Assembly (NCBI GenBank): GCA_027488335.1
Contig: JAIYBU010000192.1
Location: 1 to 50,766, forward strand
Source: Cytophagaceae bacterium
GTDB lineage: Bacteria; Bacteroidota; Bacteroidia; Cytophagales; Spirosomataceae
Length of the DNA: 50,766 nucleotides
Direction of reading: 5' to 3'
Numbering within the stretch: the stretch's first letter is position 1; every line of letters begins with the position of its first letter. The position numbers and the translations under genes were made by a program. The notes under the pieces were generated by a model. That model was not told the origin of the DNA. It saw only the letters and a list, made by a program, of their open reading frames with translations, and made no database searches. Shown piece after piece: positions 7,693 through 28,454 of the stretch.

Positions 7693-7904
7693 TTGATATT
7701 TATTGAACACATTTACCAAAGTTCCGCCTCATTGCTTTCCTCTCAAAATTCATCATACATTTTATTACAATACTTAACCCTAAGTTTTTCTAAAAAACAC
7801 TCAAATTTTTATCAGACAAAATGGGTCAACTTGGGAAATAAATTGAAAAATTTGTTTTTTTTTACAATCTATATGACAAAATAAAGAATTTTCAAAATTA
7901 CAAG

Positions 7905-7921
7905 TCTATAAATTTGATAGA
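7905..7921. promoter_or_regulatory. 17-bp palindromic operator, copy 1
   Basis: TCTATAAATTTGATAGA fits TCTAY-N7-RTAGA, shared with five other promoter regions in this window. It overlaps the -33 TTTG (7913-7916) of the TonB-receptor promoter, so a bound protein could block RNA polymerase or act as an activator. Confidence 0.65.
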
Positions 7922-7943
7922 GTATATGGATTTTATATATTTG
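7913..7943 (+). promoter_or_regulatory. Bacteroidota-type promoter of the first TonB receptor
   Basis: TTTG at 7913-7916 and TATATTTG at 7936-7943 are separated by 19 bases, the ideal -33/-7 arrangement for the Bacteroidota housekeeping sigma factor. Transcription should start around 7949-7952, giving a leader of roughly 185 nt. Confidence 0.7.
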
Positions 7944-8002: not shown

Positions 8003-8074
8003 ATGAAACAAAAAACCAGTCTGGCTGCCACCAAACTGGTTAGGTTTAACTCAAATAATATCACCGCTAAATGA
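8003..8074 (+). CDS. Possible 23-codon leader ORF over the leader hairpin
   Basis: ATG at 8003 opens a 23-residue frame starting MKQKTSLAATKLV and continuing RFNSNNITAK before TGA. It covers the first leader hairpin. RFNS also occurs near the start of the peptide after the SAM-like riboswitch (14287), with all four codons differing only at third positions. The equivalent leader of the SusC gene has no ATG in the matching place, so RNA structure is the better explanation for the conservation. Confidence 0.25.
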   Translation: MKQKTSLAATKLVRFNSNNITAK

Positions 8075-8116
8075 TTCCGACAGTAATCTTTTGATTAACT
8101 GCTAAGACCTTATTTT
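8014..8116 (+). ncRNA. Structured 5' leader of TonB receptor (copy 1 of 2)
   Basis: Hairpin 1: AACCAGT (8014-8020) pairs with ACTGGTT (8035-8041) around a 14-nt loop containing GGCTG. Then comes a conserved block CACCGCTAAATGATTC (8062-8077). Hairpin 2: CAGTAATC (8081-8088) pairs with GATTAACTG (8093-8101) with one bulged A. ACCTTATTTT follows at 8107-8116, 20 bases before the ATG. The same order and spacing occurs before the SusC gene (16619-16712), with different bases in the stems but pairing kept. I do not recognise it as a known riboswitch. Confidence 0.6.
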
Positions 8117-8136
8117 GCATTAAACAACTAAAATTA

Positions 8137-10704
8137 ATGAAAAGATTTCTAAATTCAATAGTAATTCTGGGAGTAACCCTTCTACCATTTATTTCTTCAG
8201 CACAAGATAAACCTGTAATTAATGCGACTGTATCGGGTAAAGTGCTTGATGCTATCACAAACGAGGCTCTTATTGGTGCAACTGTTTCTATCAAAGGAAC
8301 AACCAATGGTGCAAATACTGACGCAAACGGTGAGTTTGCTTTGATTACTGGTCAGAAATTACCCTTTACAGTGATTGTTTCTTATGTAGGATATATAAAA
8401 AGGGAAATTGTAATCAGCGAAAGTAAAGTAGAAATTAAACTTGAGCAAGATGTAAATAAATTGGCCGATGTGGTAGTTTCATCTCGCCGTCGTCAAGAGG
8501 CAGTGCAAGATATTCCTATTCCAATTTCGGTCATTCGTGGCACAACTGCCGAAGATGCTGGGGCTTTCAATGTAAACCGTTTGAAAGAACTCGTTCCTAC
8601 TGTTCAACTATATGCGTCAAATGCTCGTAATACAACACTTAATATTCGTGGTTTAGGTTCAACTTTTGGCTTGACCAATGACGGTATCGACCCAGGTGTA
8701 GGGTTTTATGTAGATGGTGTATATTATGCACGTCCTGCTGCCACTGCTCTTGATTTTGTTGACATCGACCGTGTAGAAGTTTTACGTGGCCCGCAAGGTA
8801 CATTATTTGGTAAAAATACAACTGCTGGTGCATTTAATATTACCACTCGCGAAGCAAGTTTTGACCCAACTGCCAGCTTTGAATTAAGCTACGGTAATTA
8901 TGGTTATATTCAAGCAAAAGGCTCACTTTCAGGTGGATTAACTAAAAAACTGGCTGCAAGAATCTCTTTCTCAGGTACCCAGCGTGATGGTTTATTATAT
9001 AATATCAAGACTCAACAACACCAAAATGATATTAATAACCTTGGTTTCAGAGGTCAGTTATTGTATACACCAACCGATAAAATCAAAATCACATTCATTG
9101 CCGATGCAACAACTCAAAAACCAAACGGTTATGGTTGGCCAGTAGCGGGTGTAGTTACTACCAAACGTGCTGCTTACCGTCAATTCAATGCAATCATTAA
9201 CGATTTAAACTACACACTTCCTTACAGTAGCCCATTCGAGAGAATTGTTGATTTAGATACACCTTCAAAAGCCGATAACAAGCTGGGTGGAGCGTCGGTG
9301 AATGCGGATATTAAAATCGGTAACGGTACATTGACTTCAACTTCAGCATGGCGTTATTGGCAATGGACTCCGTTGAATGACCGTGATTATACTGGTTTAC
9401 CAATTTTCACTATTTCATCGGGTAACTCAAAACACGAGCAATGGTCGCAAGAAATTAGATATTCAGGAAAAGTTTCTTCAAAAGTGAGTGGGGTAGTAGG
9501 TTTGTTTGGTTTGTGGCAAGATTTGAACTCAGACCCTGTTCAAACAGAAGAAGCGGGTTCGGCTCAATGGCGTTTTGCTCAAAGTTCAACAAGTGCTTTA
9601 TGGAAAACCCCTGGTTTATTTGATAATTTTGGTATCCGTACTACCAACCGTATTCAGAGCACAAGCTTGGCCGCATTTAGCCAAATAGACTGGGCAATTA
9701 CTGAAAAAGTACACCTTTTACCAGGTGTAAGATATAACTATGATAAAAAAGTAGCGAATTATAAAAGAGAAACTTACGGTGGTCTCCAAACAACTGATGC
9801 CGCTTTAATAGCACTGAAGAATGCAGTTTATACTAACCAAGCATTTGATACAGAAGCGACAAATGGTAATTTTTCAGGTCAACTGACTCTGCAATATAAA
9901 GCAAACAAGAATATTAACGCTTATGCAACTTTTGCTTCAAGCTACAAACCAATTGGTATCAACATCGGAGGTTTGCCAACTGCCAACGGACAAGTATTGA
10001 TTGACCTCGCAAAGGTGAAACCTGAATTTGTGAAACACATTGAATTTGGAGTAAAAACAAAACCAACGTCTAATTCAATCTTGAATGTTGTATTCTTCGA
10101 TGATGAAATCAAAGACTACCAAACGCAAGTACAAACACCAGAACCAGGTGTAAACCGTGGATACTTAGCTAATGCCGAGAAGGTTCGTGTAAGAGGTGTT
10201 GAAGTTGACGGAAATATCAGAATCAACAATCACTTTACATTCAATGGAGCAGTGGCCTATACAGATGGAAAATACGTTTCATTTACCAATGCTCCAGTGC
10301 CTTTGGAAGAAGTTGGTGGAACGCAAGCATTCAAAGATGTATCGGGTGGACGTTTGCCAGGTATTTCAAAATGGTCAGGGTCGTTTGGTGTAGAAGCAAC
10401 AACCAAAGGAAGTCTTTTAGGTTTGAAAGGAAATTACTTTGCAGCTGTTGATGTATATTTCCGTTCGGAATTTTCGTCAAGTCCATCACCTTCTCAATTT
10501 CTGAATATTGATGGCTATTCATTGTTAAACAGTCGTATTGGTTTCAGAGCATCAAACGGAATCTCTTTATTTGTTTGGGGTAGAAACCTTGCCAACAAAA
10601 ATTACTTCGAGCAATTATTAGCTGCTCCAGGTAGTGCAGGCCAGTACGCAGGCATCTTAGGCGACCCTCGTACTTACGGCACAACGCTTCGGTATTCGTT
10701 TTAA
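8137..10704 (+). CDS. TonB-dependent outer-membrane receptor
   Basis: 855 residues. A signal peptide (about 1-22, ending SSAQ) is followed by a carboxypeptidase-regulatory-like domain (about 32-105, VSGKVLDAITNEALIGATVS), then a TonB plug (about 120-240; LNIRGLGS, DGVYYARPAA, VEVLRGPQGTLFGKNTTAGA) and a 22-strand-type barrel ending TLRYSF with the classic C-terminal Phe. No SusD-like gene follows, so this is a stand-alone receptor of the siderophore/cobalamin type rather than a SusC. The N-terminal domain resembles that of the SusC at 16736 (both have TGQKLP-F/Y-T). Transcription is from the promoter at 7913 under the 17-bp operator, through a structured leader, and ends at a strong hairpin right after the stop. 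Substrate unknown; a sulfur compound is inferred from context. Confidence 0.9.
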   Translation: MKRFLNSIVILGVTLLPFISSAQDKPVINATVSGKVLDAITNEALIGATVSIKGTTNGANTDANGEFALITGQKLPFTVIVSYVGYIKREIVISESKVEIKLEQDVNKLADVVVSSRRRQEAVQDIPIPISVIRGTTAEDAGAFNVNRLKELVPTVQLYASNARNTTLNIRGLGSTFGLTNDGIDPGVGFYVDGVYYARPAATALDFVDIDRVEVLRGPQGTLFGKNTTAGAFNITTREASFDPTASFELSYGNYGYIQAKGSLSGGLTKKLAARISFSGTQRDGLLYNIKTQQHQNDINNLGFRGQLLYTPTDKIKITFIADATTQKPNGYGWPVAGVVTTKRAAYRQFNAIINDLNYTLPYSSPFERIVDLDTPSKADNKLGGASVNADIKIGNGTLTSTSAWRYWQWTPLNDRDYTGLPIFTISSGNSKHEQWSQEIRYSGKVSSKVSGVVGLFGLWQDLNSDPVQTEEAGSAQWRFAQSSTSALWKTPGLFDNFGIRTTNRIQSTSLAAFSQIDWAITEKVHLLPGVRYNYDKKVANYKRETYGGLQTTDAALIALKNAVYTNQAFDTEATNGNFSGQLTLQYKANKNINAYATFASSYKPIGINIGGLPTANGQVLIDLAKVKPEFVKHIEFGVKTKPTSNSILNVVFFDDEIKDYQTQVQTPEPGVNRGYLANAEKVRVRGVEVDGNIRINNHFTFNGAVAYTDGKYVSFTNAPVPLEEVGGTQAFKDVSGGRLPGISKWSGSFGVEATTKGSLLGLKGNYFAAVDVYFRSEFSSSPSPSQFLNIDGYSLLNSRIGFRASNGISLFVWGRNLANKNYFEQLLAAPGSAGQYAGILGDPRTYGTTLRYSF

Positions 10705-10716
10705 TAGAGGATAAAC

Positions 10717-10758
10717 AAAGTATTGGTTGTGAGGTTTCTTACAACCAATACTTTTAAA
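10717..10758 (+). terminator. Intrinsic terminator after the TonB receptor
   Basis: AAAGTATTGGTTGT (10717-10730) pairs perfectly with ACAACCAATACTTT (10741-10754) around a 10-nt loop, followed by T and A residues. The 14-bp stem covers the longest possible start of the next gene (10723), which argues for the later ATG at 10771. Confidence 0.75.
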
Positions 10759-10770
10759 ACTATTACGGCC

Positions 10771-11325
10771 ATGTTAGATACTCAAATAAAATTTATCAAT
10801 GTGCCTGGTTTGAATAATTCTGATGATTGGCACTGGCAAACGCTTTGGGAAGAACAGAATCCATCAAACTTTGTGAGAGTTACCCAAGAAGATTGGGATA
10901 ATCCAGAAAAAGATAAGTGGGTTGTCAGTCTTAAAAGGACTATTGAAAATATCAAAGAACCAATCGTTTTGGTTGCCCATAGTTTGGGTTGTATGACAGT
11001 TGCACATTATGCCCATCAATTTGATACAAATGCTCATATCTTAGGTGCTTTATTGGTAGCTCCGCCCGATGTCGAAGAATTTTATAATGCCAAATTAAAT
11101 TCATTTGCACCAGTTCCAAAAACAAAACTTACCTTCAAAAGTGTGGTTGTCGGTAGCACCAACGATAATTATTGCTCAATAGACAAAGCACAAAAAATGG
11201 CTGATTATTGGGGAAGTAAATTCATAAACATAGGCACAAAGGGCCATATCAATAGCGATTCTGGCCTCGGAGTGTGGAAGCAAGGCAAATCGCTTCTCCG
11301 AGAATTAATCTTTCAGAAAGACTAA
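10771..11325 (+). CDS. RBBP9/YdeN-family alpha/beta hydrolase
   Basis: 184 residues from the ATG at 10771. The longer frame from 10723 begins inside the terminator stem and is rejected. The RBBP9/YdeN layout is present: an N-terminal VPGLNNSDDWHWQTLWE block, the nucleophile elbow VAHSLGCM (Ser in GHSLG-like context), an acid region GSTNDNYC with Asp, and the catalytic His in KGHINSDSGLGVW. Members are small cytoplasmic serine hydrolases, mostly with unknown natural substrates. It precedes the Rrf2 gene by 52 bases and the hydroxylase gene after that by 27, so it is probably the first gene of a three-gene operon. Function in the locus unknown; ester or thioester cleavage is possible. Confidence 0.8.
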   Translation: MLDTQIKFINVPGLNNSDDWHWQTLWEEQNPSNFVRVTQEDWDNPEKDKWVVSLKRTIENIKEPIVLVAHSLGCMTVAHYAHQFDTNAHILGALLVAPPDVEEFYNAKLNSFAPVPKTKLTFKSVVVGSTNDNYCSIDKAQKMADYWGSKFINIGTKGHINSDSGLGVWKQGKSLLRELIFQKD

Positions 11326-11377
11326 AACTCTATTTTAAACCAGCATAAGCATATTACACTTCAAACAACTTAAAGGT

Positions 11378-11788
11378 ATGATTACTAAAAAAGCTAAATA
11401 TGCCTTAAAAGCACTAAGTGTTTTGGCAAAGAACTACGAAGCCAAATCATCATTGACTCTTGGTGATATAGCAGCCGAAGATAATTTACCTAAAAAATTC
11501 TTAGAAACAATTTTGCACGATTTGCGTAGAGCAGGAATATTGAGTAGCACGCAAGGGAAAAATGGGGGTTATTTTCTGAATACCCATCCAAGTCAAATTG
11601 TAATTGCTAAATTAATACGATTGATTGATGGGCCAATAGCCCCAACATTATGTGTTTCATTGCATTTCTACGGAAAATGTGACGATTGCGTGAGCGAAGA
11701 AAAATGCAAGATAAGACCCCTAATGATGCAAGTACGAGATGCCAATTTGAGTGTCTATGAAAACATGACACTGGCTGATATTTTATAG
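11378..11788 (+). CDS. Rrf2-family transcriptional regulator, paralogue A
   Basis: 136 residues. The winged-helix part runs about 1-70 with MITKKAKYALKALSVLA and a wing STQGKNGGYFL. Four Cys follow at 92, 101, 104 and 110 (pattern C-x8-C-x2-C-x5-C, in YGKCDDC). Rrf2 proteins such as IscR, NsrR and CymR sense Fe-S clusters, NO or cysteine-synthase complexes; the Cys cluster here could hold an Fe-S cluster or zinc. It is about 60 percent identical by eye to the regulator at 32769, with all four Cys in the same places. It is the likely binder of the 17-bp palindrome found in this block, which is inference. Second gene in the 10771-13048 operon. Confidence 0.85.
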   Translation: MITKKAKYALKALSVLAKNYEAKSSLTLGDIAAEDNLPKKFLETILHDLRRAGILSSTQGKNGGYFLNTHPSQIVIAKLIRLIDGPIAPTLCVSLHFYGKCDDCVSEEKCKIRPLMMQVRDANLSVYENMTLADIL

Positions 11789-11815
11789 CTTTTTCTTAAA
11801 TCAACTTCACAAACT

Positions 11816-13048
11816 ATGAAACTCAACATAATGGCCTTTGCAGTACCTTTTTTCTTCTTTTTTATACTTTTAGAATACTATATTTCAAAGAAAAAAGGTA
11901 ATAGTTTATATTCGTTTAGCACCACAATGGCTAACCTGAATGTGGGTATTGCTGAGCGTTTGATTGATGCCTTTACAGCGGGTGGTTTTTATTTTTTTTA
12001 TGTCTATTTACACGAAAAATTCGCCGTTTTCGACATAAAACCCAGCATTTTACTTTGGATTGTCTTATTATTGGTAACCGATTTTGTGTGGTACTGGTAC
12101 CACCGTTTCGGGCATGAAATCAATCTCTTTTGGGGATTTCATGTGGTACATCATTCGAGTGAAGAATTTAACTATTCAGCGGCGGCTCGTATTACTATTT
12201 TTCAGGCGGTAGTGCGTACACTCTTTTGGTCGATTCTCCCAATTATTGGCTTTCCACCGCACATGATTAGCGTTTTATTAATTATCCACGGAATCTACCC
12301 ATTTTTTACTCATACCCAACTCATTGGCCGACTCGGTATTCTCGAATACATTTTCGTTACACCTACGCATCATGGGGTGCATCATGCCAGTAATGAGGTG
12401 TATTTGGATAAAAACTACGGCGATATGTTTATCATTTGGGATAAACTTTTTGGCACGTTTGCTGAAAAAACCGAACCAGTAGTTTATGGCCTTACGAAGC
12501 AACTTGAAAGTAAAAGTTTCCTTTGGCAACATTTCCATTTTTTGGTTGAAATTGCCTATTCGGTTTCTCAAACTAAAGGTTTTCTGAATAAAGTGAAAGT
12601 TATTTTTGGTTCACCAAGTAATTTCGACCCAAATGCAAGGGCAATTGTAGAGAGCAAACTTTTATCGAAGTACAAAGTAAAAACACATTCCAACAAATTT
12701 AAGCAATATGTATTGATACAGATGGGGCTGATGCTCGTCACGCTCTTTACTTTTTTACTATTTGAGCATTACATCAATGCGTTTTTGCAAACCATCATTG
12801 CACTAACTATCATAGCTACGCTTATCAATTGCGGAGCAATTTTGGAACAACGCCGATGGGTCTTTTATATCGAATTCGTGCGAATTGCTATCATTGCACT
12901 ACCACTTATTTGGTATTTCCCACAAATTACTATTTCTGTATTGTCATTTATCTCATTGATAATTTTGGCCGTTGATTATGATGTAGTCTCTAAAGCAAAA
13001 ATTGCTTATTTAAGATTTATCTATGGTGGGAAGAAAACTCTCATCTGA
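11816..13048 (+). CDS. Fatty acid hydroxylase / sterol desaturase family membrane protein
   Basis: 410 residues with about eight predicted membrane segments. The di-iron histidine motifs are present: HRFGH near residue 101, HVVHH near 112 and HHGVHH near 187. This is the fatty_acid_hydroxylase superfamily (sterol desaturase, alkylglycerol monooxygenase). The first half is the catalytic part; the second half (about 290-400) adds more membrane helices, as in the longer members. Last gene of the operon with the hydrolase and Rrf2 gene, followed by a terminator hairpin. A second, shorter family member lies at 35214. Substrate cannot be inferred; a sulfur-containing lipid would fit the context but is speculation. 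Confidence 0.85.
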   Translation: MKLNIMAFAVPFFFFFILLEYYISKKKGNSLYSFSTTMANLNVGIAERLIDAFTAGGFYFFYVYLHEKFAVFDIKPSILLWIVLLLVTDFVWYWYHRFGHEINLFWGFHVVHHSSEEFNYSAAARITIFQAVVRTLFWSILPIIGFPPHMISVLLIIHGIYPFFTHTQLIGRLGILEYIFVTPTHHGVHHASNEVYLDKNYGDMFIIWDKLFGTFAEKTEPVVYGLTKQLESKSFLWQHFHFLVEIAYSVSQTKGFLNKVKVIFGSPSNFDPNARAIVESKLLSKYKVKTHSNKFKQYVLIQMGLMLVTLFTFLLFEHYINAFLQTIIALTIIATLINCGAILEQRRWVFYIEFVRIAIIALPLIWYFPQITISVLSFISLIILAVDYDVVSKAKIAYLRFIYGGKKTLI

Positions 13049-13092
13049 AAATGCGATTACGTGATTTACGTGATTTTGTTGAACTATTTCAT

Positions 13093-13128
13093 TCTGGGTA
13101 AATTTATCATTGATTTACCCAGATTTAT
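13093..13128 (+). terminator. Terminator after the hydroxylase operon
   Basis: TCTGGGTAAAT (13093-13103) pairs perfectly with ATTTACCCAGA (13113-13123), 9-nt loop, followed by TTTATTT. Confidence 0.7.
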
Positions 13129-13210
13129 TTCAATCTCACATTCTAAATCACTCAAAATATATTTATACCAACCTTATTTTTAAAAAAAACATTTTACAGA
13201 ACAGCAACGT

Positions 13211-14089
13211 ATGAAAAAAGTTTATTTGAGCGATTCAGGACCTAAAGTATCAGAAGCAATTTATGGATTTTGGAGATGGGAGAATTTGGGTTCTCAGACC
13301 ACACAAAAAATGGAACAAATCGTCAATTTATGTTTAGAACTCGGTATTAATACCTTCGACCACGCAGATATTTACGGCGATTTTACAATTGAAGAACATT
13401 TCGGAAAGGTAATAGCCAGTAAAAGTTTTCGTCGAGAAGATATCGTATTATTTAGTAAATGTGGTATCCGAAAATCAGATAATAGCAAAACCTATTATTT
13501 CGATAATGCAAGAGATTACATCATTGAGAGTGTTGATAATTCACTCAAGAAACTAAAAACCGACTATATTGATATATTTTTATTAAACCAAAGCGATGTT
13601 TTATCTGACCCAGAGCAAACTGCAATGGCTTTGGCCGAGGTCGTTAATTCTGGTAAGGTAAATCATATTGGAGTAGCCAATTTCAATGTTTTTCAACATA
13701 AACTTTTGGCATCTTATCTGACCATTCCAATCGTAACGAACCATATCGAGCTAAATGTGATGAATACAACGGCCATCGAAGACGGTCGGATTGATTTTAT
13801 CAAACAAAGTTTCAGTAAGCCTTTGGCGTGGGCTCCGTTGGCAGGTGGCGAAATTTTTGAAGGAAAAGAAGGAAAAGCGGCAGTTTTGAAAGAAAAACTC
13901 GAAAGTATCAGCAAAAAATACGACGCCAATATTGAACAAACGGCCGTTGCTTGGCTCATTCAGTTAGGAACTTTACCAATTATTGGGTCTCTATCCGAAA
14001 CTCGTATAAAAAATGCAGCCAGTGCAACACAAATAAAACTCAGCCAACAAGATTGGTACGACATCTACCAAACCACAGTAACGTCTTAG
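13211..14089 (+). CDS. Aldo/keto reductase (YdhF-like)
   Basis: 292 residues with a (beta/alpha)8 pattern. Family motifs: LGINTFDHADIYGDF (catalytic Asp and Tyr near residues 56-61), LFSKCGIR around residue 87 (Lys of the tetrad), LLNQSDVLSDPEQTA in place of the usual LLHRPD, so the usual His is replaced by Asn, and a C-terminal cofactor-binding part (PIIGSLSETRI). It most resembles the YdhF group of NADPH-dependent oxidoreductases. The His-to-Asn change may affect proton relay, but some family members lack that His. Single-gene unit between two terminators; its own terminator overlaps the stop codon. Role in the locus unknown. Confidence 0.85.
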   Translation: MKKVYLSDSGPKVSEAIYGFWRWENLGSQTTQKMEQIVNLCLELGINTFDHADIYGDFTIEEHFGKVIASKSFRREDIVLFSKCGIRKSDNSKTYYFDNARDYIIESVDNSLKKLKTDYIDIFLLNQSDVLSDPEQTAMALAEVVNSGKVNHIGVANFNVFQHKLLASYLTIPIVTNHIELNVMNTTAIEDGRIDFIKQSFSKPLAWAPLAGGEIFEGKEGKAAVLKEKLESISKKYDANIEQTAVAWLIQLGTLPIIGSLSETRIKNAASATQIKLSQQDWYDIYQTTVTS

Positions 14090-14104
14090 TAGAGACGTTA
14101 CTGT
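14075..14104 (+). terminator. Terminator overlapping the reductase stop codon
   Basis: ACAGTAACGTCT (14075-14086) pairs perfectly with AGACGTTACTGT (14093-14104); the 6-nt loop holds the TAG stop. The A-run that follows rather than a T-run makes termination less certain than the stem strength suggests. Confidence 0.55.
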
Positions 14105-14120
14105 AAAAAATGAAAAAAAG

Positions 14121-14152
14121 TTTGGATAATATATTTCTATAAAGTATCTTTG
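14121..14152 (+). promoter_or_regulatory. Promoter of the riboswitch unit
   Basis: TTTG at 14121-14124 and TATCTTTG at 14145-14152, 20 bases apart, match the Bacteroidota -33/-7 consensus. The operator at 14153 begins directly after the -7 box. Confidence 0.7.
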
Positions 14153-14169
14153 TCTATCGAATAAGTAGA
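14153..14169. promoter_or_regulatory. 17-bp palindromic operator, copy 2
   Basis: TCTATCGAATAAGTAGA fits TCTAY-N7-RTAGA exactly. It sits immediately downstream of the -7 box and covers the predicted start site, the position expected for a repressor. Confidence 0.6.
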
Positions 14170-14175
14170 TTAATA

Positions 14176-14268
14176 GATTTATTAAGAACGAAGAAAGAGA
14201 TTAGGCTCGACGAACTTCTGGCAACCTGCTAACCACCAGTAAGGTGCCAATTCCTAAACAGATAAATC
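14176..14268 (+). promoter_or_regulatory. SAM-I-like riboswitch, compact variant
   Basis: The closing stem P1 is GATTTAT (14176-14182) with ATAAATC (14262-14268). Inside lies a short P2 (GAG 14197-14199 with CTC 14206-14208), then GACGAAC and the SAM-I core: GGCAACC (14220-14226) pairing with GGTGCC and followed by AATTCC (14243-14254). The block GGCTCGACGAACTTCTGGCA aligns well with the SAM-I consensus around GGCCCGAUGAAACCCGGCA. The usual long P2 with its kink-turn is not seen, so this is a reduced variant. Known family knowledge: SAM-I elements switch sulfur and methionine genes off when S-adenosylmethionine is abundant. No clear terminator stem lies directly after it, so control may be at translation. 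Confidence 0.65.
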
Positions 14269-14286
14269 AAATAAAATAAAAAATAC

Positions 14287-14409
14287 ATGAAAAACCTTAG
14301 ATTCAATTCCCAGACAATGGTGGTATTGTCGCTCCTCTCTCTTATAGGCGAAAAACTTGCCCATCATTTAAATAATCGTTTTTACCCTGCTTTACAATGC
14401 TATTGTTAA
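14287..14409 (+). CDS. 40-residue peptide downstream of the SAM-like riboswitch
   Basis: ATG at 14287, 18 bases after the riboswitch. The peptide starts MKNLRFNSQT, has a hydrophobic run (MVVLSLLSLIG, residues 11-21), then EKLAHHLNN, and ends ALQCYC. The frame begins at the right place to be the riboswitch's direct target. With a hydrophobic middle and Cys-Tyr-Cys end it could be a small membrane peptide, a metal or persulfide binder, or a Cys-sensing leader for genes further downstream. I do not recognise a family. It was below the usual gene-finding length limit. Confidence 0.5.
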   Translation: MKNLRFNSQTMVVLSLLSLIGEKLAHHLNNRFYPALQCYC

Positions 14410-14650
14410 TATCGTATTAAGAATTTCTTTTTACACTTGTCAAATTATGGACCATCTGCTGTGCATTTTTGCTCGGTAAGAGAGTGCTATCCATACATAT
14501 TCAACTTGAGCATTTTGCAGGGAAATTATTCGTAAAAAATAAATTACTTGTAGTAAAACCAAAGAGAATTATAAAAAATAGTAGATAGTACAAAACTAAG
14601 GGAGAGAGCTTTTGATATTGATTTGCAGTCAATTATAATAATAGATATTA

Positions 14651-14818
14651 ATGCCAAAGATGGTAATGCCAAGCTGGTTTGATACAGCAAGAAAGCTACC
14701 CATCAATCGCACTGATATCGGAATCAAATGTGGCTCAAAAATTTTCTTTGAGAATTTAGGAGACAAATTTATTTACGAAGATTTTGAATTGGTCATAACG
14801 TTGATACCAGCATTATAA
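14651..14818 (+). CDS. Small unassigned frame, possibly a gene remnant
   Basis: A 55-residue frame (MPKMVMPSWFDTARKLPINR at the start, then charged/aromatic residues, ending ELVITLIPAL). A different frame immediately upstream (AFDIDLQSIIIIDINAKDGN, about 14610-14668) looks protein-like too, which suggests one longer gene broken by a frameshift. Nothing in it is recognised. The remaining sequence between 14410 and 14979 shows no other gene. Confidence 0.25.
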   Translation: MPKMVMPSWFDTARKLPINRTDIGIKCGSKIFFENLGDKFIYEDFELVITLIPAL

Positions 14819-14979
14819 TATGTTTTAGAGTTTAATACTTGAAATTAGGTTGAAAAGGATAGCATTAGGTAGGGTTCAGAAATAGCTGAATCCTACCATA
14901 ATCTTAAAGCCACCATTATTCCTTAAAAACTGACTTATATACACTTAATCAATGAACTAAAAACCTATTGGAAAACACA

Positions 14980-16176
14980 ATGAATATCTATTTAGACAAC
15001 GCAGCCACAACCGTCATAGATTCGGAAGTTCTAAACGCAATGATGCCTTATCTATATAGGTATTATGGAAATCCATCGTCAAACCATAGTTTAGGCCGAA
15101 AAGTACACGAAGCAATCGAAACTTCTCGACAAACCATTGCCGATATTTTACATGTACTGCCCGAAGAGATTTTCTTTACTTCGGGAGCAACAGAGGCTAA
15201 TAATTGGGCAATTTCGAGTTCTTTAGAAACATATCATATCAAACACGTGATTACGAGTGCCATTGAGCATAAATCAATTCTTGAGACTTTTACCGAGCAT
15301 TTTTGTAAAAATAAAATAAAACTCAGCTTTGTGAATCTCGACCGAAAGGGTAATATCAATCTAAATCATTTGGAGCAATTGTTGGCTGAAAACCCACGCT
15401 CCTTGGTGAGTTTGATGCACGTAAACAACGAAATCGGCAATATCACAAACATTGAAGAAGTAAGCGAAATTGCTAAATCGTACCGAGGTATCGTTCATTC
15501 AGACATAGTGCAGAGTCTTGGAAAAATTCCAGTAAACTTAAAAAACAATGGTGTTGATTTTGCGGTGGGGTCAAGCCACAAAATACATGGACCAAAAGGA
15601 ATTGGTTTTTTGTATGCACACAAACGTACTAATTTAAGTTCGTTGTTGCACGGAGGGGGGCAAGAAAGGGGCTATCGTGGTGGTACTGAAAATGTAGTCA
15701 GTATTGTTGGTTTTGCTAAAGCTCTCGAAACAGCGAACGGCAATCTCGAAAAAGTGCATAAACATAACCAAACTCTGAAAGAACGACTTATCAGTGGACT
15801 AAAACGCTTAGATTTAGAAGAGTTTGAATTTAATGGTGAAAGCGAATCGTTGAGTAAAAGCGTACCCAATATTGTCAATGCTCGTTTCACAGTTTTGCCC
15901 GATAATCGACTTTTACAAAATATACTCGACGAACAGGGAATTCATGTTTCGAGTGGCAGTGCTTGCTTGAATTTGTCGAAAGGTGGTTCCCATGTTATCA
16001 GTGCATTGTACCCAAAATCAGATGGTGAAAACGTCAGATTTTCCTTCTCAAAGTACAATTCATTGTTTGAGATTGATACTGCCGTACGAGCAATCGCAAA
16101 GGTTTTTAAACAAGAGAAAAAACGCTTTTTAGTTAAGGATTTACACACAGTTCAATCAGCGAGTGTTGTGTATTGA
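14980..16176 (+). CDS. Cysteine desulfurase (NifS/IscS class)
   Basis: 398 residues from the ATG at 14980; a TTG four codons earlier is less likely. The class V aminotransferase fold motifs are clear: YLDNAATT at the N-terminus, TSGATEANNWA near residue 70, the PLP stacking/aspartate region HSDIVQSLGK near 173-182, the PLP lysine in SSHKIHGPKG (Lys201), and the catalytic Cys in SSGSACLN (Cys329). The enzyme converts cysteine to alanine and a protein persulfide. No IscU or other Fe-S assembly gene is nearby, so it may serve sulfur relay or cysteine breakdown in this locus. A terminator follows. It may share the transcript of the riboswitch unit, though 570 bases separate them. Confidence 0.88.
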   Translation: MNIYLDNAATTVIDSEVLNAMMPYLYRYYGNPSSNHSLGRKVHEAIETSRQTIADILHVLPEEIFFTSGATEANNWAISSSLETYHIKHVITSAIEHKSILETFTEHFCKNKIKLSFVNLDRKGNINLNHLEQLLAENPRSLVSLMHVNNEIGNITNIEEVSEIAKSYRGIVHSDIVQSLGKIPVNLKNNGVDFAVGSSHKIHGPKGIGFLYAHKRTNLSSLLHGGGQERGYRGGTENVVSIVGFAKALETANGNLEKVHKHNQTLKERLISGLKRLDLEEFEFNGESESLSKSVPNIVNARFTVLPDNRLLQNILDEQGIHVSSGSACLNLSKGGSHVISALYPKSDGENVRFSFSKYNSLFEIDTAVRAIAKVFKQEKKRFLVKDLHTVQSASVVY

Positions 16177-16238
16177 TAGATAAGCAGTAGGTTTATTGTA
16201 ACCGCTTGAGCTACAATAAATTAATTTGACGGAGCGTA

Positions 16239-16270
16239 TAAAAGGCCTAATTATTTTTAGGTCTTTTATT
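16239..16270 (+). terminator. Terminator after the cysteine desulfurase
   Basis: TAAAAGGCCTAA pairs with TTAGGTCTTTTA (one G-U pair), short A/T loop, closing onto TTTTATT. Confidence 0.65.
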
Positions 16271-16417
16271 ACACTAAATTGACTGTAAGTAATTGATTAT
16301 TAGTTTTTTATAATTTTCTTTTATGAAAATAATTTCATAAAAAATTGTACTTTTAAAAGAATAGTTAAACAAAGTTTTTCTTTTTTTAGGAATATGAAAA
16401 ATAAATAATTTACTTTG

Positions 16418-16434
16418 TCTATGGATTTTATAGA
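16418..16434. promoter_or_regulatory. 17-bp palindromic operator, copy 3
   Basis: TCTATGGATTTTATAGA fits TCTAY-N7-RTAGA. It begins directly after a -7-like box (TTACTTTG, 16410-16417), exactly the arrangement seen at 14153. It controls the susC/susD unit. Confidence 0.65.
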
Positions 16435-16618
16435 TTAATAAAAATATAAAAACTGAGCCTAACTACGATAGTCATAAATACCTACAAAGACAGTTCTAAT
16501 AAATTAGAAGAATTTACGGTGGTTGTATCTTCAGCTATTTAGAAGGGCTGTCAGTAGGTATTTAGACTAAAAATTGAAGAATATAAGTTTCACATAACTA
16601 AAAAAAAGCCAAAAAGTG

Positions 16619-16712
16619 CCACTCTTGCTGGAACAAGAGTGGCTGGTCAAAAAAAGGCTCATTGCGGAATGATTCAGGCGATTGCGGTGCAATCGTCCCA
16701 GTACCTTATTTT
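16619..16712 (+). ncRNA. Structured 5' leader of susC (copy 2 of 2)
   Basis: Hairpin 1: CCACTCTTG (16619-16627) pairs with CAAGAGTGG (16634-16642). The conserved block CATTGCGGAATGATTC is at 16660-16675. Hairpin 2: GGCGATTGC (16677-16685) pairs with GCAATCGTC (16689-16697), one G-U. ACCTTATTTT is at 16703-16712, 23 bases before the ATG. Compared with the leader at 8014, the fourth base of the CCAG/CCAC stem changes from G to C while its partner changes from C to G. Confidence 0.6.
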
Positions 16713-16735
16713 TTAAATTAACCAATACAAAGTAA

Positions 16736-19700
16736 ATGAAAAAAAAGCTACTTGTACAGTTTTTATTGGCTATTTTACTAATTCCATCAGTAATTATAGC
16801 TCAGAATGCAGATGTCACGATTAACTCCACGCTTTCAGGGAGGGTTTTAGATGAAAAAACAAACGAACCACTCATTGGTGCTTCAGTACAGATTAAGGGC
16901 ACTACACACGGAGTAATTACCGATGGTGAAGGGAAGTTTTACTTCAAAACAGGTCAAAAATTACCTTACACGCTGATTATCAATTACATTGGTTACGAAC
17001 TAAAAGAGGTTTTAGCAACTACAAGTTCAATCTCAATTTCGTTACAAACCAATGCCAAGCAGTTAAGCGAAATTGTGGTTGTGGGCTATGGCACACAAGA
17101 ACGCAAAAACTTGATTGGTTCTATCACTAAAGTAAATCCGCTCGAAGTAAACGCTATTCCTGTGGGTAGTATTGATGCACAATTGCAGGGAAAAGTTTCG
17201 GGGGTACAAATTTCTTCTCCAACGGGAGTTCCAGGTGAAACCGTAAACGTCAGAGTGCGTGGAGCAACCTCAATCAATGCCGATAACGACCCACTTTATG
17301 TAATTGATGGTGTATTTATTAATAGCAATAGTCTTCAAACTATCGGAACTGGTGGCAAGGCAACTTCTCCGATTGCCGACCTAAATCCTTCTGATATCCA
17401 AAGTATTGAGGTATTGAAAGATGCCGAAGCAACGGCCCTCTACGGTTCTCGTGGAGCAAACGGTGTTATTTTGATTACTACCAAGAGAGGAAATTTCGAG
17501 CAAGCCCCCAAAGTAAACTTCAATGTAAGCTATGGCCAAGCAAAAGCTATCAAACTGTGGGAATTAACCACTGGCCCCGAACACGCTCAACTCGTCAATG
17601 AATGGTGGATAAACACAGGAAAAGATACGCCTTCTTTGAATAGAACTTTTGCCAACCGTCCTTTCAGACCCGTATCAGAAGGTGGTCGTGGACTACCAGA
17701 AGAGCAAAAAACATACGACCGACTAAGCGAAGCATTTCGCACGGCAACACTTCAAAACTACGATATTTCGTTGGTTGGTGGCACAAAAACGACCAAATAC
17801 TACATCGGTGGGGGCTTCAATTCTCAAGAAGCAATTTTGAAACCGATAACATTTGATAGAGCGAGTTTCAAAGTAAACCTCGACCAAAAAATCAATGATA
17901 AAGTTCAAATTGGTGTAAGTAACTCATTTAGTCGTACGTATCGAAATCAGGCTCGTGCGGGTGATGGCCCTCAAGGGGGGCTTTTACAAGCCGCTTTGCA
18001 TACACCAACGTATCTTTCACCTACCGAAAACGGAGTTTTGGTTGGCCGAGCTGGTTTTGATAACTTAACCCTTTTACTTGATAATTACGATGTGAACTCA
18101 ACGAGTTTGCGATATATTGGTAATTTATATGCCGAAGCAGAATTATTACCCAACCTAAAACTACGCTCAAGTTGGGGTGCCGATTATAATAACTACAACG
18201 AATCTGAATACTGGAATACATTCTTGCTTTTGGGTGCTCAAGGTGGTTTGGCCACTTCTTCAATTAGCCAATTTACTTCTTTGTTGAATGAGCAAACATT
18301 GACTTATCGTCAGAAAATTGGCAAAAAACATTCTTTGGGAGTTGTTGTAGGAAATACGCTTCAAAGCGATGTTTTGACAAGAACTTATGCCGAAGGTCGT
18401 GGATTTGCAAATAATTCATTCAAAATCATCTCGTCCGCTGCCACAACAACCAGTACACAAAGTTGGAGCAAAAGTAATCTTGCTTCATTTTTTGCCAAAG
18501 CTGATTATGGTTTTGATGGAAAATATTTAGTCAACTTCAGTATAAGAGCCGATGGTTCATCAAGATTCGGTTCTGAACGCAAGTGGGGGTATTTCCCAGC
18601 AGTAGGAGCAGCTTGGCGATTAAAACAAGAAAGTTTCTTGAAAGATGTTGGGTTAATTTCTGACCTAAAATTAAGAGCCAGTTATGGCATTGTTGGAAAT
18701 CAGAACGGTATCGGAAACTTCGCAGCCCAAGGACTTTGGACTGGTGGAGCTCCGTATCAGGGAAGCCCAGGTATTGCACCACAACAATTATCTAACCCAG
18801 ATTTGAAATGGGAACGCACCAATCAGTTCAATGTAGGTTTAGATGCTTCATTATTCAATAGCAAAGTTTCTTTTGAGATTAACTATTATACAAAATATAC
18901 TCGTGATGGGCTCTTGCAGTTGGCATTGCCAAGCACCACTGGTTTTGCCAATTATTGGAGCAATGCCGCCGAAATCAGTAATAAAGGTTTTGAACTGAAT
19001 ATCAATACCATCAACTATGAAAGAGCAGGTTTAAAATGGACAACCAGTTTCAATGTGGCACAAAATATCAATAAAATCGAAAAACTTGAAAATCCGCTTC
19101 GTTACGGAAGCCGTGATTTGATTTTGCAACAACAAGGCACTCCACTCTATTCGTTTTGGGTCTATAAACAACTTTCGGTCAATCCTGAAACTGGAAACGT
19201 TGTGTATGAAGATGTAAACAAAGATGGACAAATTACGGTAGCTGACCGCCAAATTGTGGGCAGTATTTGGCCAAAATTCTTCGGTGGATTGACTAATAAT
19301 GTGAGTTATAAAGGCTTTGAACTTTCAGCATTTTTGGCATTCCAATACGGTAACAAGATTTATAACCATAATAAATTTTTTGGCGAAGGTGGTGGTGCAA
19401 GAGATGCCGCTCGTGTGATTTTTGCGAGCAATAATGCCAGATGGCAAAAACCTGGCGATATTACGGACGTGCCAAGACCAGACGGTGTAAACGTAAACAA
19501 CTACCGTGACGGCGGCAGCCGATGGTTGGAAGATGGCTCATTCTTACGTCTTCGTAGTTTGAATTTGGCTTATAACTTCCCGAAAGCAATCGCCAACAAA
19601 TTGAAAGCTGATGCTTTGAAAGTGTACGTAAATGGTACGAATCTCTTCTTATTGACAAAATACACTGGCCTTGACCCTGAGTCGAGTGCGAGTAGCGACC

Positions 19701-19777
19701 AAAACGCACAAGGTATTGACTTAGGAACGCCTCCACAGCCACGTAGTTTTCAAGCTGGTTTAAGTTTGACATTCTAA
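16736..19777 (+). CDS. SusC/RagA-family TonB-linked outer-membrane protein
   Basis: 1013 residues. Signal peptide to about residue 22 (IIAQ), carboxypeptidase-regulatory-like domain (about 30-105, [20 protein letters not shown]), TonB box-like region [10 protein letters not shown] near residue 112, then the plug with SusC signatures ([53 protein letters not shown]-type), and a barrel ending FQAGLSLTF. SusC proteins form the pore of a lidded importer with the SusD lipoprotein, whose gene follows after 40 bases. Substrates are usually glycans or oligopeptides; here the gene carries the 17-bp operator and the leader shared with the 8137 receptor, so a sulfur-containing nutrient is my inference. 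Confidence 0.93.
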   Translation: [1013 protein letters not shown]

Positions 19778-19817
19778 TTCAAGGTCAATTTTTTGAAAAA
19801 ATTAAATCAATAGAATA

Positions 19818-21155
19818 ATGAGAGCATTAAAGTATATATTATCCATAGGTTTACTTACATCAACAGTTTCGTGCAATAAATTTTTAGATGTACAGCCTTT
19901 AGAATCAATTTCTGATACGCAAACAATTTTCGATAAAACTTCGGCCGAAACTGCTCTTCGAGGGGTTTATTCGGCATTGAGCAATGGTAGTTATTACGGA
20001 ACTACCTTTCAATCAATCGGTTATCTGACTGGCGATAATATTCAATGGACTGGCTCGCAATCGCAAGTGCAGGAATTTATCAATAAAAAAGTCAACGCCG
20101 ATAATTCGACGATTGGAGGTGCATGGACGGCTATCTATCGTACCATCAATCGTGCAAATAATGTCATTGCCAAAGTTCCAACGGTAACAGACCCACTTTT
20201 GACCGATGTCCTAAAAAATCAATTAGTGGGTGAAGCCTATTTTATCAGAGCATTGGCTTATTTCGATTTGGCTCGTACTTGGGGTGGCGTGCCTTTAATT
20301 ACGAAACCCACTTCAAACCCAACCGAAAACAGAGGGGTAAGCAGAAGCTCACAAGCCGAAACGTATGCGTTGGTTTTGAAAGACCTCGAAACTGCCGAGC
20401 CATTACTCCCAGCTACAACTGACCGTTACCGAGCTACTCGTAAAACGGTTTGGGCATTGCGTTCTCGCTTGCATTTATACTTAAAAGAGTGGGAAAAAGC
20501 AGAAGAATATGCTTCAAAATTGATAACAGATACCAATTACAGACTTGTAAAACCATATAATGCTTTCTTTGCGAATGATGTCAGAGGCACACAAGAATCG
20601 GTTTTTGAGATTTTCTACAGTGCCAACGAGACCAATACTCATCGTGGACAATGGCAACCACAGACGAATGGTGGAACTCGCCAGTGGGCTCCGAATGATG
20701 CAATTGTTGCCTTATTGAACGACCCAAAAGTAGGTGGTGGACGCAGTACGCTTATTGCAAAAGATAATCAGAATCGTTGGTACGGAAATTTATATTACCG
20801 CACGCCAGCAACTGACCCAACTTTTGTATTTCGTATCGCTGAAATCTACTTAATTCGTGCTGAGGCCCGTGCCAATCTTGATAAACTAACCGATGGTCTT
20901 GATGATTTGAATGCTATTCGTGACCGTGCTGGTATTGCAGTAGCAACCGCCACAACGAAAGATGCACTTCTATTAGCTATCGAAAACGAACGACGTGTAG
21001 AATTTGCCTTAGAGCCACACCGCTGGTTCGATGTAGTGCGTACGGGTCGTGCGACACAGGTTTTCAATGTAACCGATGCTAACCGTCTATTGTTACCGCT
21101 TCCTATTACTGAATTATTGATTGATAAAGCGTTGGTGCAAAACCCAGGGTACTAA
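19818..21155 (+). CDS. SusD/RagB-family nutrient-binding lipoprotein
   Basis: 445 residues with lipoprotein signal (STVSCNKFLDVQP, lipidated Cys near residue 19). SusD fold hallmarks: an N-terminal TPR-like helical part (ETALRGVYSALS; RAIAYFDLARTWG-type RALAYFDLARTWGGVPLI near 140-160), EAYFIRALAYFDLARTWG and the C-terminal RIAEIYLIRAEARA, LDDLNAIRDRAGI, ENERRVEFALEPHRWFDVVRTG. It sits on the outer face and closes over the SusC pore. Pair with 16736. An inverted repeat follows, before the DoxX-like operon. Confidence 0.93.
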   Translation: MRALKYILSIGLLTSTVSCNKFLDVQPLESISDTQTIFDKTSAETALRGVYSALSNGSYYGTTFQSIGYLTGDNIQWTGSQSQVQEFINKKVNADNSTIGGAWTAIYRTINRANNVIAKVPTVTDPLLTDVLKNQLVGEAYFIRALAYFDLARTWGGVPLITKPTSNPTENRGVSRSSQAETYALVLKDLETAEPLLPATTDRYRATRKTVWALRSRLHLYLKEWEKAEEYASKLITDTNYRLVKPYNAFFANDVRGTQESVFEIFYSANETNTHRGQWQPQTNGGTRQWAPNDAIVALLNDPKVGGGRSTLIAKDNQNRWYGNLYYRTPATDPTFVFRIAEIYLIRAEARANLDKLTDGLDDLNAIRDRAGIAVATATTKDALLLAIENERRVEFALEPHRWFDVVRTGRATQVFNVTDANRLLLPLPITELLIDKALVQNPGY

Positions 21156-21164
21156 AAATATATG

Positions 21165-21198
21165 TCAGTCCTATGAGGAGCTTGCTTCATAGGACTGA
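21165..21198 (+). terminator. Hairpin after susD
   Basis: TCAGTCCTATGA (21165-21176) pairs perfectly with TCATAGGACTGA (21187-21198), 10-nt loop. It is followed by TAAAAAAA rather than a T-run, so it may be a partial terminator or an mRNA-stabilising stem that lets lower transcription continue into the next operon. Confidence 0.6.
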
Positions 21199-21243
21199 TA
21201 AAAAAAATTAGGAGTTACAAACACTTACCTAAATACCTCTACT

Positions 21244-22587
21244 ATGTCAAAATCTATTGAATTTAACTCGCAAAGCGAATGGAGTAATATAGAAAAAACT
21301 GTTTTTAAGTTTTTCGGTATTTATTTCTTTTTGCAGGTGTTACCCTTAGATGTAAGGTTTTTTAAACACCTTTTTTCAATCAATTGGTTGCAGATTCAGT
21401 ATCGAGATATTTTTTATTTATCGAGATACTCTCCAACTTTCACGGGTGATGATAGCTTTTTTAATTGGCTAATTATCATCCTAATGGCTGCTATCGGAAC
21501 ATTTATTTGGGATAAAATTTACACCAAAGAACCTAATTACGACCAATTCTATTATTGGCTTCGAGTATTGGTTCGTTATCGTTTAGCGATTGGCGTTATT
21601 GCTTACGGGTTTTTGAAATTCTTCCCAATTCAAGCCCCTTTTCCTTCATTAAGTAATCTTAATACCAATTATGGAGATTTCACGGCTTGGAAATTATTTT
21701 CTGTCGGCTTGGGTGTTGTGCCAAGTTACCAATCGTTTTTGGGTTTGGTAGAAATTGTGGCGGGTTTACTTTTATTGAATCGTAAAACGGCAACGATTGC
21801 CACGCTAATCATTCTTCCTTTTACTGGAAACGTAGCCATTTCAAATATCGCCTACGAAGGCGGCGAATATGTTTATGCCTTCTACCTCGTTGCTTTGGCT
21901 CTCTATCTTTTCGCTTTTGATGCTATCCGATTATTTAATTTACTTTCTCTCGAAAAACCAACTGCACCTAACCGTTTTCAACCAATTTTTGCTGGAAAAT
22001 GGAAGCAGTATCGCATTGCTCTAAAAACAGTTTTCATCTTATTTTTTGTGGTTTTTTATGGCTTCAAGACTTATGCGGGCTATAAAAACAAAGGTTATCA
22101 TTTTCCAAAAGCAAAAGGCATCGAAAACATCAGTGGGTTATATAACGTAAGTGAGTTTCGCTGGAATAATCAGACGATTCCTTATTCAAAAACCGACCCA
22201 ATTCGATGGCAAAATGTGGTTTTTGAAAAATGGAATACATTGAGTATCAAATCAAATAAGCCCGTAATTATTGAGCATTTACCGAGCGAAGAACTCTATA
22301 AAGCAGACTCCAATCGTATCTATGAATTTGCAGGTTCACAAGGCCGCCACTATTATAGTTATGATTTTGATTCTACAAAATCGGCACTTTTGCTGAATAA
22401 TCGCAACAAACACCATGCTTCTGATAAGCTGTCGCTTTCGTTTAAACGCTTGAATGACTCGACGATTGTCTTGTCGGGCTTGAGTGCTGGTAAGGATTCG
22501 GTTTATGCGGTTTTGAATAAAATCAATAAAAAATACTTGACCATTGAGGCGAAAAAATCAGGTCGTAGAAATGCGTTGAAATTATAA
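21244..22587 (+). CDS. DoxX-like membrane protein, paralogue 1
   Basis: 447 residues. An N-terminal soluble segment is followed by about seven membrane helices up to residue 275. A conserved YWLRVLVRYRLAIGVIAYGFLKFFPIQ block resembles the DoxX/DoxD membrane fold, and a C-terminal soluble domain of about 150 residues follows. DoxX/DoxD relatives include the membrane subunit of thiosulfate:quinone oxidoreductase, but the resemblance is at fold level and I would not claim that activity. First gene of a six- to seven-gene operon with very short gaps. Closely related to the next gene in both membrane and C-terminal domain (PYSKTDPIRWQNVVFEKWNTL versus PYSPLDTTRWQQATFEKWTTL). Confidence 0.6.
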   Translation: MSKSIEFNSQSEWSNIEKTVFKFFGIYFFLQVLPLDVRFFKHLFSINWLQIQYRDIFYLSRYSPTFTGDDSFFNWLIIILMAAIGTFIWDKIYTKEPNYDQFYYWLRVLVRYRLAIGVIAYGFLKFFPIQAPFPSLSNLNTNYGDFTAWKLFSVGLGVVPSYQSFLGLVEIVAGLLLLNRKTATIATLIILPFTGNVAISNIAYEGGEYVYAFYLVALALYLFAFDAIRLFNLLSLEKPTAPNRFQPIFAGKWKQYRIALKTVFILFFVVFYGFKTYAGYKNKGYHFPKAKGIENISGLYNVSEFRWNNQTIPYSKTDPIRWQNVVFEKWNTLSIKSNKPVIIEHLPSEELYKADSNRIYEFAGSQGRHYYSYDFDSTKSALLLNNRNKHHASDKLSLSFKRLNDSTIVLSGLSAGKDSVYAVLNKINKKYLTIEAKKSGRRNALKL

Positions 22588-22614
22588 TTCTAACCAATTC
22601 AAAACTCTAAAATT

Positions 22615-24273: not shown

Positions 24274-24278
24274 ATTTT

Positions 24279-27555: not shown

Positions 27556-27568
27556 ACCTTCACGAGAA

Positions 27569-28429: not shown

Positions 28430-28454
28430 ATTTCTAATATAAAAAACTAACCCT

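Follow-up and report, generated by a model that had tools for sequence, protein, structure and literature searches.

A predicted cis-antisense RNA with a conserved terminator hairpin opposite the leaders of SusC/TonB receptor genes in Bacteroidota

Why should two receptor genes of one genome share the same structured leader, and on which strand does that structure act? In the stretch analysed here (50,766 nt of contig JAIYBU010000192.1, Cytophagaceae bacterium assembly GCA_027488335.1, family Spirosomataceae; hereafter the window), a TonB-dependent receptor gene at 8137 and a SusC gene at 16736 are preceded by the same pieces in the same order: a hairpin (hairpin 1; 8015–8040 in copy 1, 16618–16643 in copy 2), the block CAYYGCKRAATGATTC (8062–8077 and 16660–16675), a second hairpin (~8080–8102 and ~16676–16699) and ACCTTATTTT, which ends 20 bases (copy 1) or 23 bases (copy 2) before the ATG. 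The original prediction described this order as a structured leader of the two mRNAs, and every piece lies where it was placed; the block has only these two exact matches in its own genome, with 40 further places matching at one or two mismatches. Judged from sequence, the better supported RNA nevertheless appears to be that of the minus strand, with its strand, terminator, conserved fold and fixed place all supported. We consider it highly probable that a small cis-antisense RNA of ~75–125 nt (~112–115 nt in the window) overlaps each receptor leader and ends at hairpin 1 as an intrinsic terminator, and we infer that this RNA is transcribed and represses the receptor. The features concerned are as follows.

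8009–8126, minus strand: predicted cis-antisense RNA 1, ~115 nt, opposite the 5′ leader of the 8137 TonB receptor gene; inferred 5′ end near 8122–8126, inferred 3′ end in the U-tract near 8010–8014
8010–8040, minus strand: predicted terminator of antisense RNA 1; stem 8015–8024/8031–8040, loop 8025–8030, U-tract 8014–8010
8061–8074, minus strand: body hairpin P2 of copy 1 (UCAUUUAGCGGUGA), the block CAYYGCKRAATGATTC read on the opposite strand
8080–8102, minus strand: body hairpin P3 of copy 1, from the minus-strand fold; the second hairpin of the original prediction
8129–8136, minus strand: TAATTTTA, a putative −7 box of the antisense promoter directly next to the receptor start codon, agreeing with TAnnTTTG at 5 of its 6 fixed bases
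8137–10704, plus strand: TonB-dependent receptor gene, 855 aa (Pfam plug, barrel and CarbopepD_reg_2), its leader overlapped
16611–16724, minus strand: predicted cis-antisense RNA 2, ~112 nt, opposite the 5′ leader of the 16736 SusC gene; both ends predicted
16611–16643, minus strand: predicted terminator of antisense RNA 2; stem 16618–16627/16634–16643, loop 16628–16633
16659–16672, minus strand: body hairpin P2 of copy 2, from the alignment and the minus-strand fold
16676–16699, minus strand: body hairpin P3 of copy 2, from the minus-strand fold
16728–16735, minus strand: TTACTTTG, a putative −7 box of the antisense promoter directly next to the SusC start codon, again agreeing with TAnnTTTG at 5 of its 6 fixed bases
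16736–19777, plus strand: SusC/RagA gene, 1013 aa (TIGR04056, 819.9 bits)
From 19818, after the SusC gene: SusD gene (SusD families)

Orthologs of the two receptors were searched in 58 genomes each, and hairpin 1 was present upstream of some orthologs and missing upstream of others. Together with 12 sequences from relatives, the two window copies gave a set of 14 (12 distinct rows) on which a hairpin model (R1) was built. In this set 8 of the 10 pairs vary on both sides, and 94.2% of the cells are paired, a share that falls to 45.8% or less with the partner slid. R1 matched 101 of 200 genomes of the family at E ≤ 0.1; places left unfetched were opposite-strand duplicates, places already in the set and low-scoring ones. 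The 90 fetched matches were reduced to 76 loci for fold and box counts by dropping one duplicate, eleven loci with no receptor match (L094, L136, L147, L148, L161, L167, L172, L174, L177, L179 and L180) and two (L166 and L168) with receptors of 777 and 791 aa and a hairpin match of another length. A 61-row alignment (A3) excludes L161, L167, L172, L177, L179, L180, other-length matches and identical rows, and includes L094, L136, L147 and L174, all without a receptor match; its covariation score was 0.69, which none of 500 shuffles reached. The G-C to C-G change noted between the two window copies is real, and the selection on RNA structure read from it is borne out by covarying stems in many further copies. 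No Rfam family was found at gathering score over either window leader, on either strand, or over 19 related loci, and matches up to E 10 were weak and all well under that score, in keeping with the expectation that the element is not a known family.

The strand of the structure is indicated by its mismatches. Read on the plus strand, the 61 hairpin-1 stems contain 38 A·C cells, 4 G·U and 3 other mismatches (32 A·C against 4 G·U among the 50 distinct stems), an excess that translates into U·G pairs on the minus strand and that was obtained against the bias of the search, since R1 was built and searched on the plus strand, where A·C is penalised. A run of A precedes the stem on the plus strand (mean 6.5 A in 8 bases, against 2.2 T in 8 on its 3′ side; 72 loci), and so becomes a U-tract 3′ of the stem on the minus strand, although the 6.5 figure is partly a product of search selection because 4 of the 8 positions lie inside R1. 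A 10-bp stem followed by a T-rich 3′ flank on the minus strand has the form of an intrinsic terminator. In 74 of the 76 loci the complete element is more stable on the minus strand (mean −42.0 vs −31.3), and with hairpin 1 removed the minus strand is the more stable in 73 and the plus strand in 3. Because the minus strand is richer in G+T (0.58), both strands were also compared with dinucleotide shuffles, giving a mean z of −4.49 for minus and −2.84 for plus, with minus lower in 68 of 76 loci. The window copies behave alike: −33.6 vs −22.3 kcal/mol (z −3.35 vs −2.37) for minus and plus in copy 1, and −40.7 vs −35.0 kcal/mol (z −5.08 vs −3.05) in copy 2, whose minus-strand fold was equalled by none of 300 shuffles; a shuffle test of the leaders on the plus strand only gave z of −2.57 and −2.72. 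In the consensus folds of one subgroup of 17 rows and another of 34, the minus strand has 146 G·U and 5 A·C cells, compared with 8 G·U and 28 A·C on the plus strand. With the structure better supported on the minus strand, hairpin 1 resembles an antisense terminator.

The first bases of the minus-strand RNA (GGTTA or GTTTAA) are predicted to form one strand of a helix whose other strand immediately precedes the terminator. Within this helix, a short subgroup has an inner stem of AAAATGAGG/CCTTGTT type, and a long subgroup has hairpins P3 and P2 (UCAUU/RRUGA, the block of the original prediction), then the 10-bp terminator and U-tract; the fold of copy 1 accordingly comprises a closing helix, two body hairpins and the terminator. 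The closing helix, seen in single folds and as three hardly varying pairs in the A4 consensus, is less well proved than the terminator. P2 (columns 82–86/93–97) varies mainly by wobble, with U-G at two inner pairs in 9 and 15 of 34 rows, and two-sided changes occur at two of its five pairs, in 1 row and in 3 rows of the 34. The full-length minus-strand model (R2) matched copy 1 at 8007–8137 (E 4.9e-13) and copy 2 at 16610–16734 (E 4.3e-15), both on the minus strand and both part of its training alignment.

At the other end of the predicted RNA, a TAnnTTTG-like box at the receptor start codon, facing the RNA, scored 5 or 6 of 6 in 70 of 76 loci, compared with 10 of 25 SusC starts of the same genome without an R1 match and 6 of 20 chosen other window genes. 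A TTTG within 14 nt after CAT on the minus strand was found in 59 of 76 loci, against 5 of the 25 SusC controls and 2 of the 20 other window genes. The SusC controls are 25 of the 27 own-genome starts without an R1 match (L184 and L198 omitted), and three of them (L195, L207 and L208) show a similar hairpin by eye. Measured from −7 box to U-tract, the predicted RNA would be ~75–125 nt long. Its promoter would be sigma-A-like, with the −7 box directly against the receptor start codon; transcription would begin ~10–12 bases upstream of that codon and run away from the receptor gene, and the RNA would fold as a closing helix around a branched body and stop at hairpin 1 and its U-tract. By pairing with the leader close before the start codon it would then lower receptor expression, as is reported for DonS of Bacteroides fragilis (see below), whether by blocked translation, duplex cleavage or transcriptional interference.

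The place of the element is similarly constant: in 79 of the 90 fetched matches the first long open reading frame (ORF) within 700 nt downstream is a BLAST relative of the window receptors. The nearest upstream ORF lies on the receptor's strand in 60 of 76 loci, on the opposite strand in 13 (259–1075 nt away) and was not found in 3. The element is therefore not generally the leader of a divergent gene, a candidate we rejected given that the nearest ORF of at least 120 aa was divergent in only those 13.

Several observations weigh against the antisense reading. Eleven of the 90 matches (the loci named above) have no receptor match, and L136, L147 and L174 precede another gene. Only 6 of the 76 loci have all 6 fixed bases in the −7 box, most (64) having 5, and a −33 box (TTTG) looked for upstream of it was not evident; in Flavobacterium johnsoniae too this box is reported as not identifiable (PMC7366714). 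In copy 2 the U-tract (TTTTT) is interrupted, preceded by two other bases and weaker than in copy 1. R2 matched nothing outside its own family among 390 genomes of the order. Finally, the plus strand also beats its shuffles, so that a sense-strand role or a mirror fold of the mRNA may exist as well.

Among the loci without a receptor match, L136, L147 and L174 come from three genomes of one genus and have a CTGCAA-loop hairpin 230–251 nt upstream of a 644-aa non-receptor gene. At L094, a receptor-like start (ATGAAAAAAAAA) follows the element with no long reading frame downstream, as if the gene were interrupted.

The terminator loop is itself shared by many loci. On the plus strand the hairpin-1 loop is CGGCAA in 27 of the 61 rows and fits C[TG]G[GC][AC]A in 51, CGGCAA being UUGCCG on the minus strand; the phylum matches of family f26 mostly have CGGCAA, as does Flavobacterium L308. 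The loop is not universal, with CGCCAA- or CTCCAA-like forms on the minus strand in Chitinophaga and a different short loop in Mucilaginibacter. A generic terminator loop was considered and rejected: 80 other terminators in 91 sources yielded nine six-base loops, a small control, none of TT...G form.

In 20 of 72 loci a second hairpin with the identical loop (H0; 19 CGGCAA, 1 TTGCAG) lies upstream, its loop starting 20–64 bases before the hairpin-1 model. In the same 72 loci the reversed loop and the reverse complement each gave 0, and shuffled letters gave a mean of 0.24 and a maximum of 2 over 50 trials. All 12 pairs of the H0 stem change on both sides, with 82.5% of cells paired against at most 46.3% when slid (21 sequences, L148 added) and a covariation score of 0.777 that none of 500 shuffles reached. 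Its wobbles on the plus strand are G·U (36, vs 3 A·C), and H0 therefore belongs to the sense RNA, where its loop is complementary to that of the antisense terminator. The loci with H0 fall in genera g3, g5, g9, g16 and g19, and in some Spirosoma-like genomes H0 may offer the terminator loop a partner to kiss. We treat such kissing as a hypothesis because the rows are related and only L142 changes the loop in both hairpins. Against it stand the 52 of 72 loci without a matching H0 within 75 nt, together with L118 and L143 (loop CTGCCA), where by eye the neighbouring hairpin has another loop. It is conceivable, if doubtful, that a structured cis-antisense RNA family in several Bacteroidota groups controls SusC/TonB transporters by a dedicated loop-loop contact, the UUGCCG terminator loop of many loci being kept for kissing a CGGCAA loop of the mRNA that is repeated, in some lineages, as H0 outside the overlap. 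Were this true, the targets of the RNA could extend to receptor mRNAs from other places in the genome that carry this loop.

How do these observations bear on other explanations? A sense-strand riboswitch or attenuator, in which hairpin 1 would be the ligand sensor and the next stem, with CCTTATTTT, the terminator, draws on the plus-strand folds, which are better than those of shuffles (mean z −2.84), and on a T-rich run after the second stem; against it stand the wobble asymmetry, the stabilities and the A-run/U-tract, all of which point to the minus strand, and the lack of an Rfam family at gathering score over the element. We dropped this model because A·C outnumbered G·U on the plus strand, and now regard it as very improbable. 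Of the structured sense leader originally proposed, the structure stands, including better-than-shuffled plus-strand folding, while its assignment to the mRNA gives way to the better supported minus strand, hairpin 1 resembling an antisense terminator rather than an mRNA sensor. Hairpin 1 could instead be a mere insulator that stops antisense transcription begun inside the receptor gene from reaching the gene upstream, with no defined RNA. Such a blocker could be useful where upstream genes mostly share the receptor's strand (60 of 76), but the body itself is conserved all the way from start codon to terminator and has pairs that covary or wobble on the minus strand, a −7-like box stands at the start of that body, and the loop is unlike those of other terminators in the small control; we find this explanation hard to credit. 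Two further candidates that came under consideration were a protein-binding site on the mRNA and a trans-acting seed like that of FopS (PMC11697453).

A more serious proposal, compatible with the antisense RNA, is that both strands matter: the antisense RNA is real, and the sense leader folds as its mirror, takes part in loop-loop contact and may attenuate itself. The plus-strand mean z below −2 and the 20 loci with H0 speak for it; the many A·C mismatches that hairpin 1 keeps on the plus strand speak against it, as do the loci lacking H0 and the differing loops at L118 and L143. On balance we lean slightly away from this combination, while holding to the antisense RNA itself.

How widely is the predicted antisense RNA distributed? 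R2 found both window copies on the minus strand and matches in 23 of 390 genomes of the order, all in its own family and some of them used in training it; because it is silent outside that family, the wider spread rests on R1 and on position. In 395 genomes of the phylum R1 matched 41 at E ≤ 0.01, and at 14 phylum loci chosen as element-like the translated downstream ORF matched SusC in all 14. These are part of 28 new loci (L241–L268), from which L245 and L262 (short), L254 (contig edge) and, as other terminators or coding DNA by eye, L255–L258, L260, L261, L263–L265, L267 and L268 were left out. Approached from the gene, 75 named SusC orthologs had an R1 match directly upstream in 23 cases at E ≤ 0.01 and in 30 at E ≤ 1. 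The records concerned belong to Emticicia, Flectobacillus, Runella, Spirosoma, Rudanella, Aquirufa, Flavobacterium, Chitinophaga and Mucilaginibacter, and weakly to Pinibacter; none was found in the Dyadobacter, Larkinella or Pedobacter records among these 75, and coverage within genera is incomplete (Runella L279 and L322 have no R1 match).

In the genome of the window, four SusC genes that R1 did not report (L184, L195, L207 and L208) show by eye an A-run and hairpin before the start, with loops CGGCAA, CTGTAA, CTGGAAA and CTACCAA; their matched SusC part starts ~400–500 nt past the first ATG. As R1 missed these four, the hairpin family is probably larger than R1 indicates.

Antisense RNAs at susC genes are already known in Bacteroides. 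DonS-type RNAs of 78–128 nt are encoded divergently to susC homologs and are reported to lower their expression (PMC7366714); the mechanism of DonS in Bacteroides fragilis was called unknown in 2025 (PMC11697453). In Bacteroides thetaiotaomicron, 52% of cis-antisense RNA candidates have a sigma-ABfr promoter (PMC7366714), and 32 antisense RNAs (asRNAs) associated with polysaccharide utilisation loci (PULs) are annotated (PMC10994844); a Flavobacterium psychrophilum paper deals with asRNAs in general and cites 15 PULs in B. fragilis (PMC9723704). Like the DonS-like RNAs, the element described here lies opposite and just upstream of a susC homolog (79 of 90 fetched, 14 of 14 selected phylum and 23 of 75 named loci); its predicted length of ~75–125 nt would be near their 78–128 nt. 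It differs in lying outside Bacteroides (Emticicia, Runella, Spirosoma, Flavobacterium, Chitinophaga and others) and in having a fold and terminator hairpin common to its loci. The likeness is drawn from position, with predicted size and putative promoter type as possible further points, and the receptors here need not be glycan receptors. FopS and GibS, which act with RbpB in B. thetaiotaomicron (PMC11697453), are also small RNAs at the start of susC mRNAs; FopS, however, is multicopy, addresses several mRNAs and has a 5′ single-stranded seed before its terminator, whereas the element here is cis-encoded and predicted to be closed by a helix.

In the open-licence literature consulted, neither a conserved fold nor a shared terminator loop nor a matching sense hairpin is described for these groups, and no such antisense RNA with a conserved fold is described outside Bacteroides. 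New by that measure are a terminator loop common to two families (Chitinophaga having another loop) and a sense hairpin, present at 20 of 72 loci, whose loop is complementary to it. A covariance model suffices to find the terminator hairpin, which opens Bacteroidota to a search for such RNAs from sequence alone, and the loop with its matching sense hairpin provides a mutable hypothesis for how an antisense RNA meets its mRNA. A count of A·C against G·U is advisable before a covarying leader is named a riboswitch.

A known riboswitch does occur in the window: a SAM riboswitch (RF00162) at 14176–14268 on the plus strand (60 bits), likewise a structured leader and different from the element in sequence, strand and place, is followed by a cysteine-desulfurase-like gene at 14968 (match below curated cut-offs). 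The 16736 SusC is 99% identical over all 1013 residues to its best named match, from Emticicia aquatilis, and the genome of the window is accordingly probably that of an Emticicia. Downstream of the SusC/SusD pair (16736–29714) lie a SoxC-like sulfite dehydrogenase (24866) and a cyanophycinase-like protein (27569), both over cut-off; a cytochrome (24279) and a YeiH-like exporter (28455) are matched more weakly. These neighbours may have been the origin of the suggested link with sulfur metabolites, which is not supported, the hairpin being found also before SusC proteins only ~32–43% identical to that of the window (over the part compared) and before long SusC-like receptors of 1123–1166 aa.

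Near one Chitinophaga element (L326), a DUF805b RNA (RF02914) was found at 119–153 on the plus strand, ~3.7 kb away. An AT-rich near-palindrome of CTACTAATTTGGTAGA type lies at ~7903–7943 and upstream of several orthologs of the 8137 receptor (e.g. L033, L034, L038 and L039); it adjoins a TATATTTG-like box, is present too where the antisense hairpin is missing (L038 and L039), and is perhaps the site of a regulator, an Rrf2-family gene being located at 11378.

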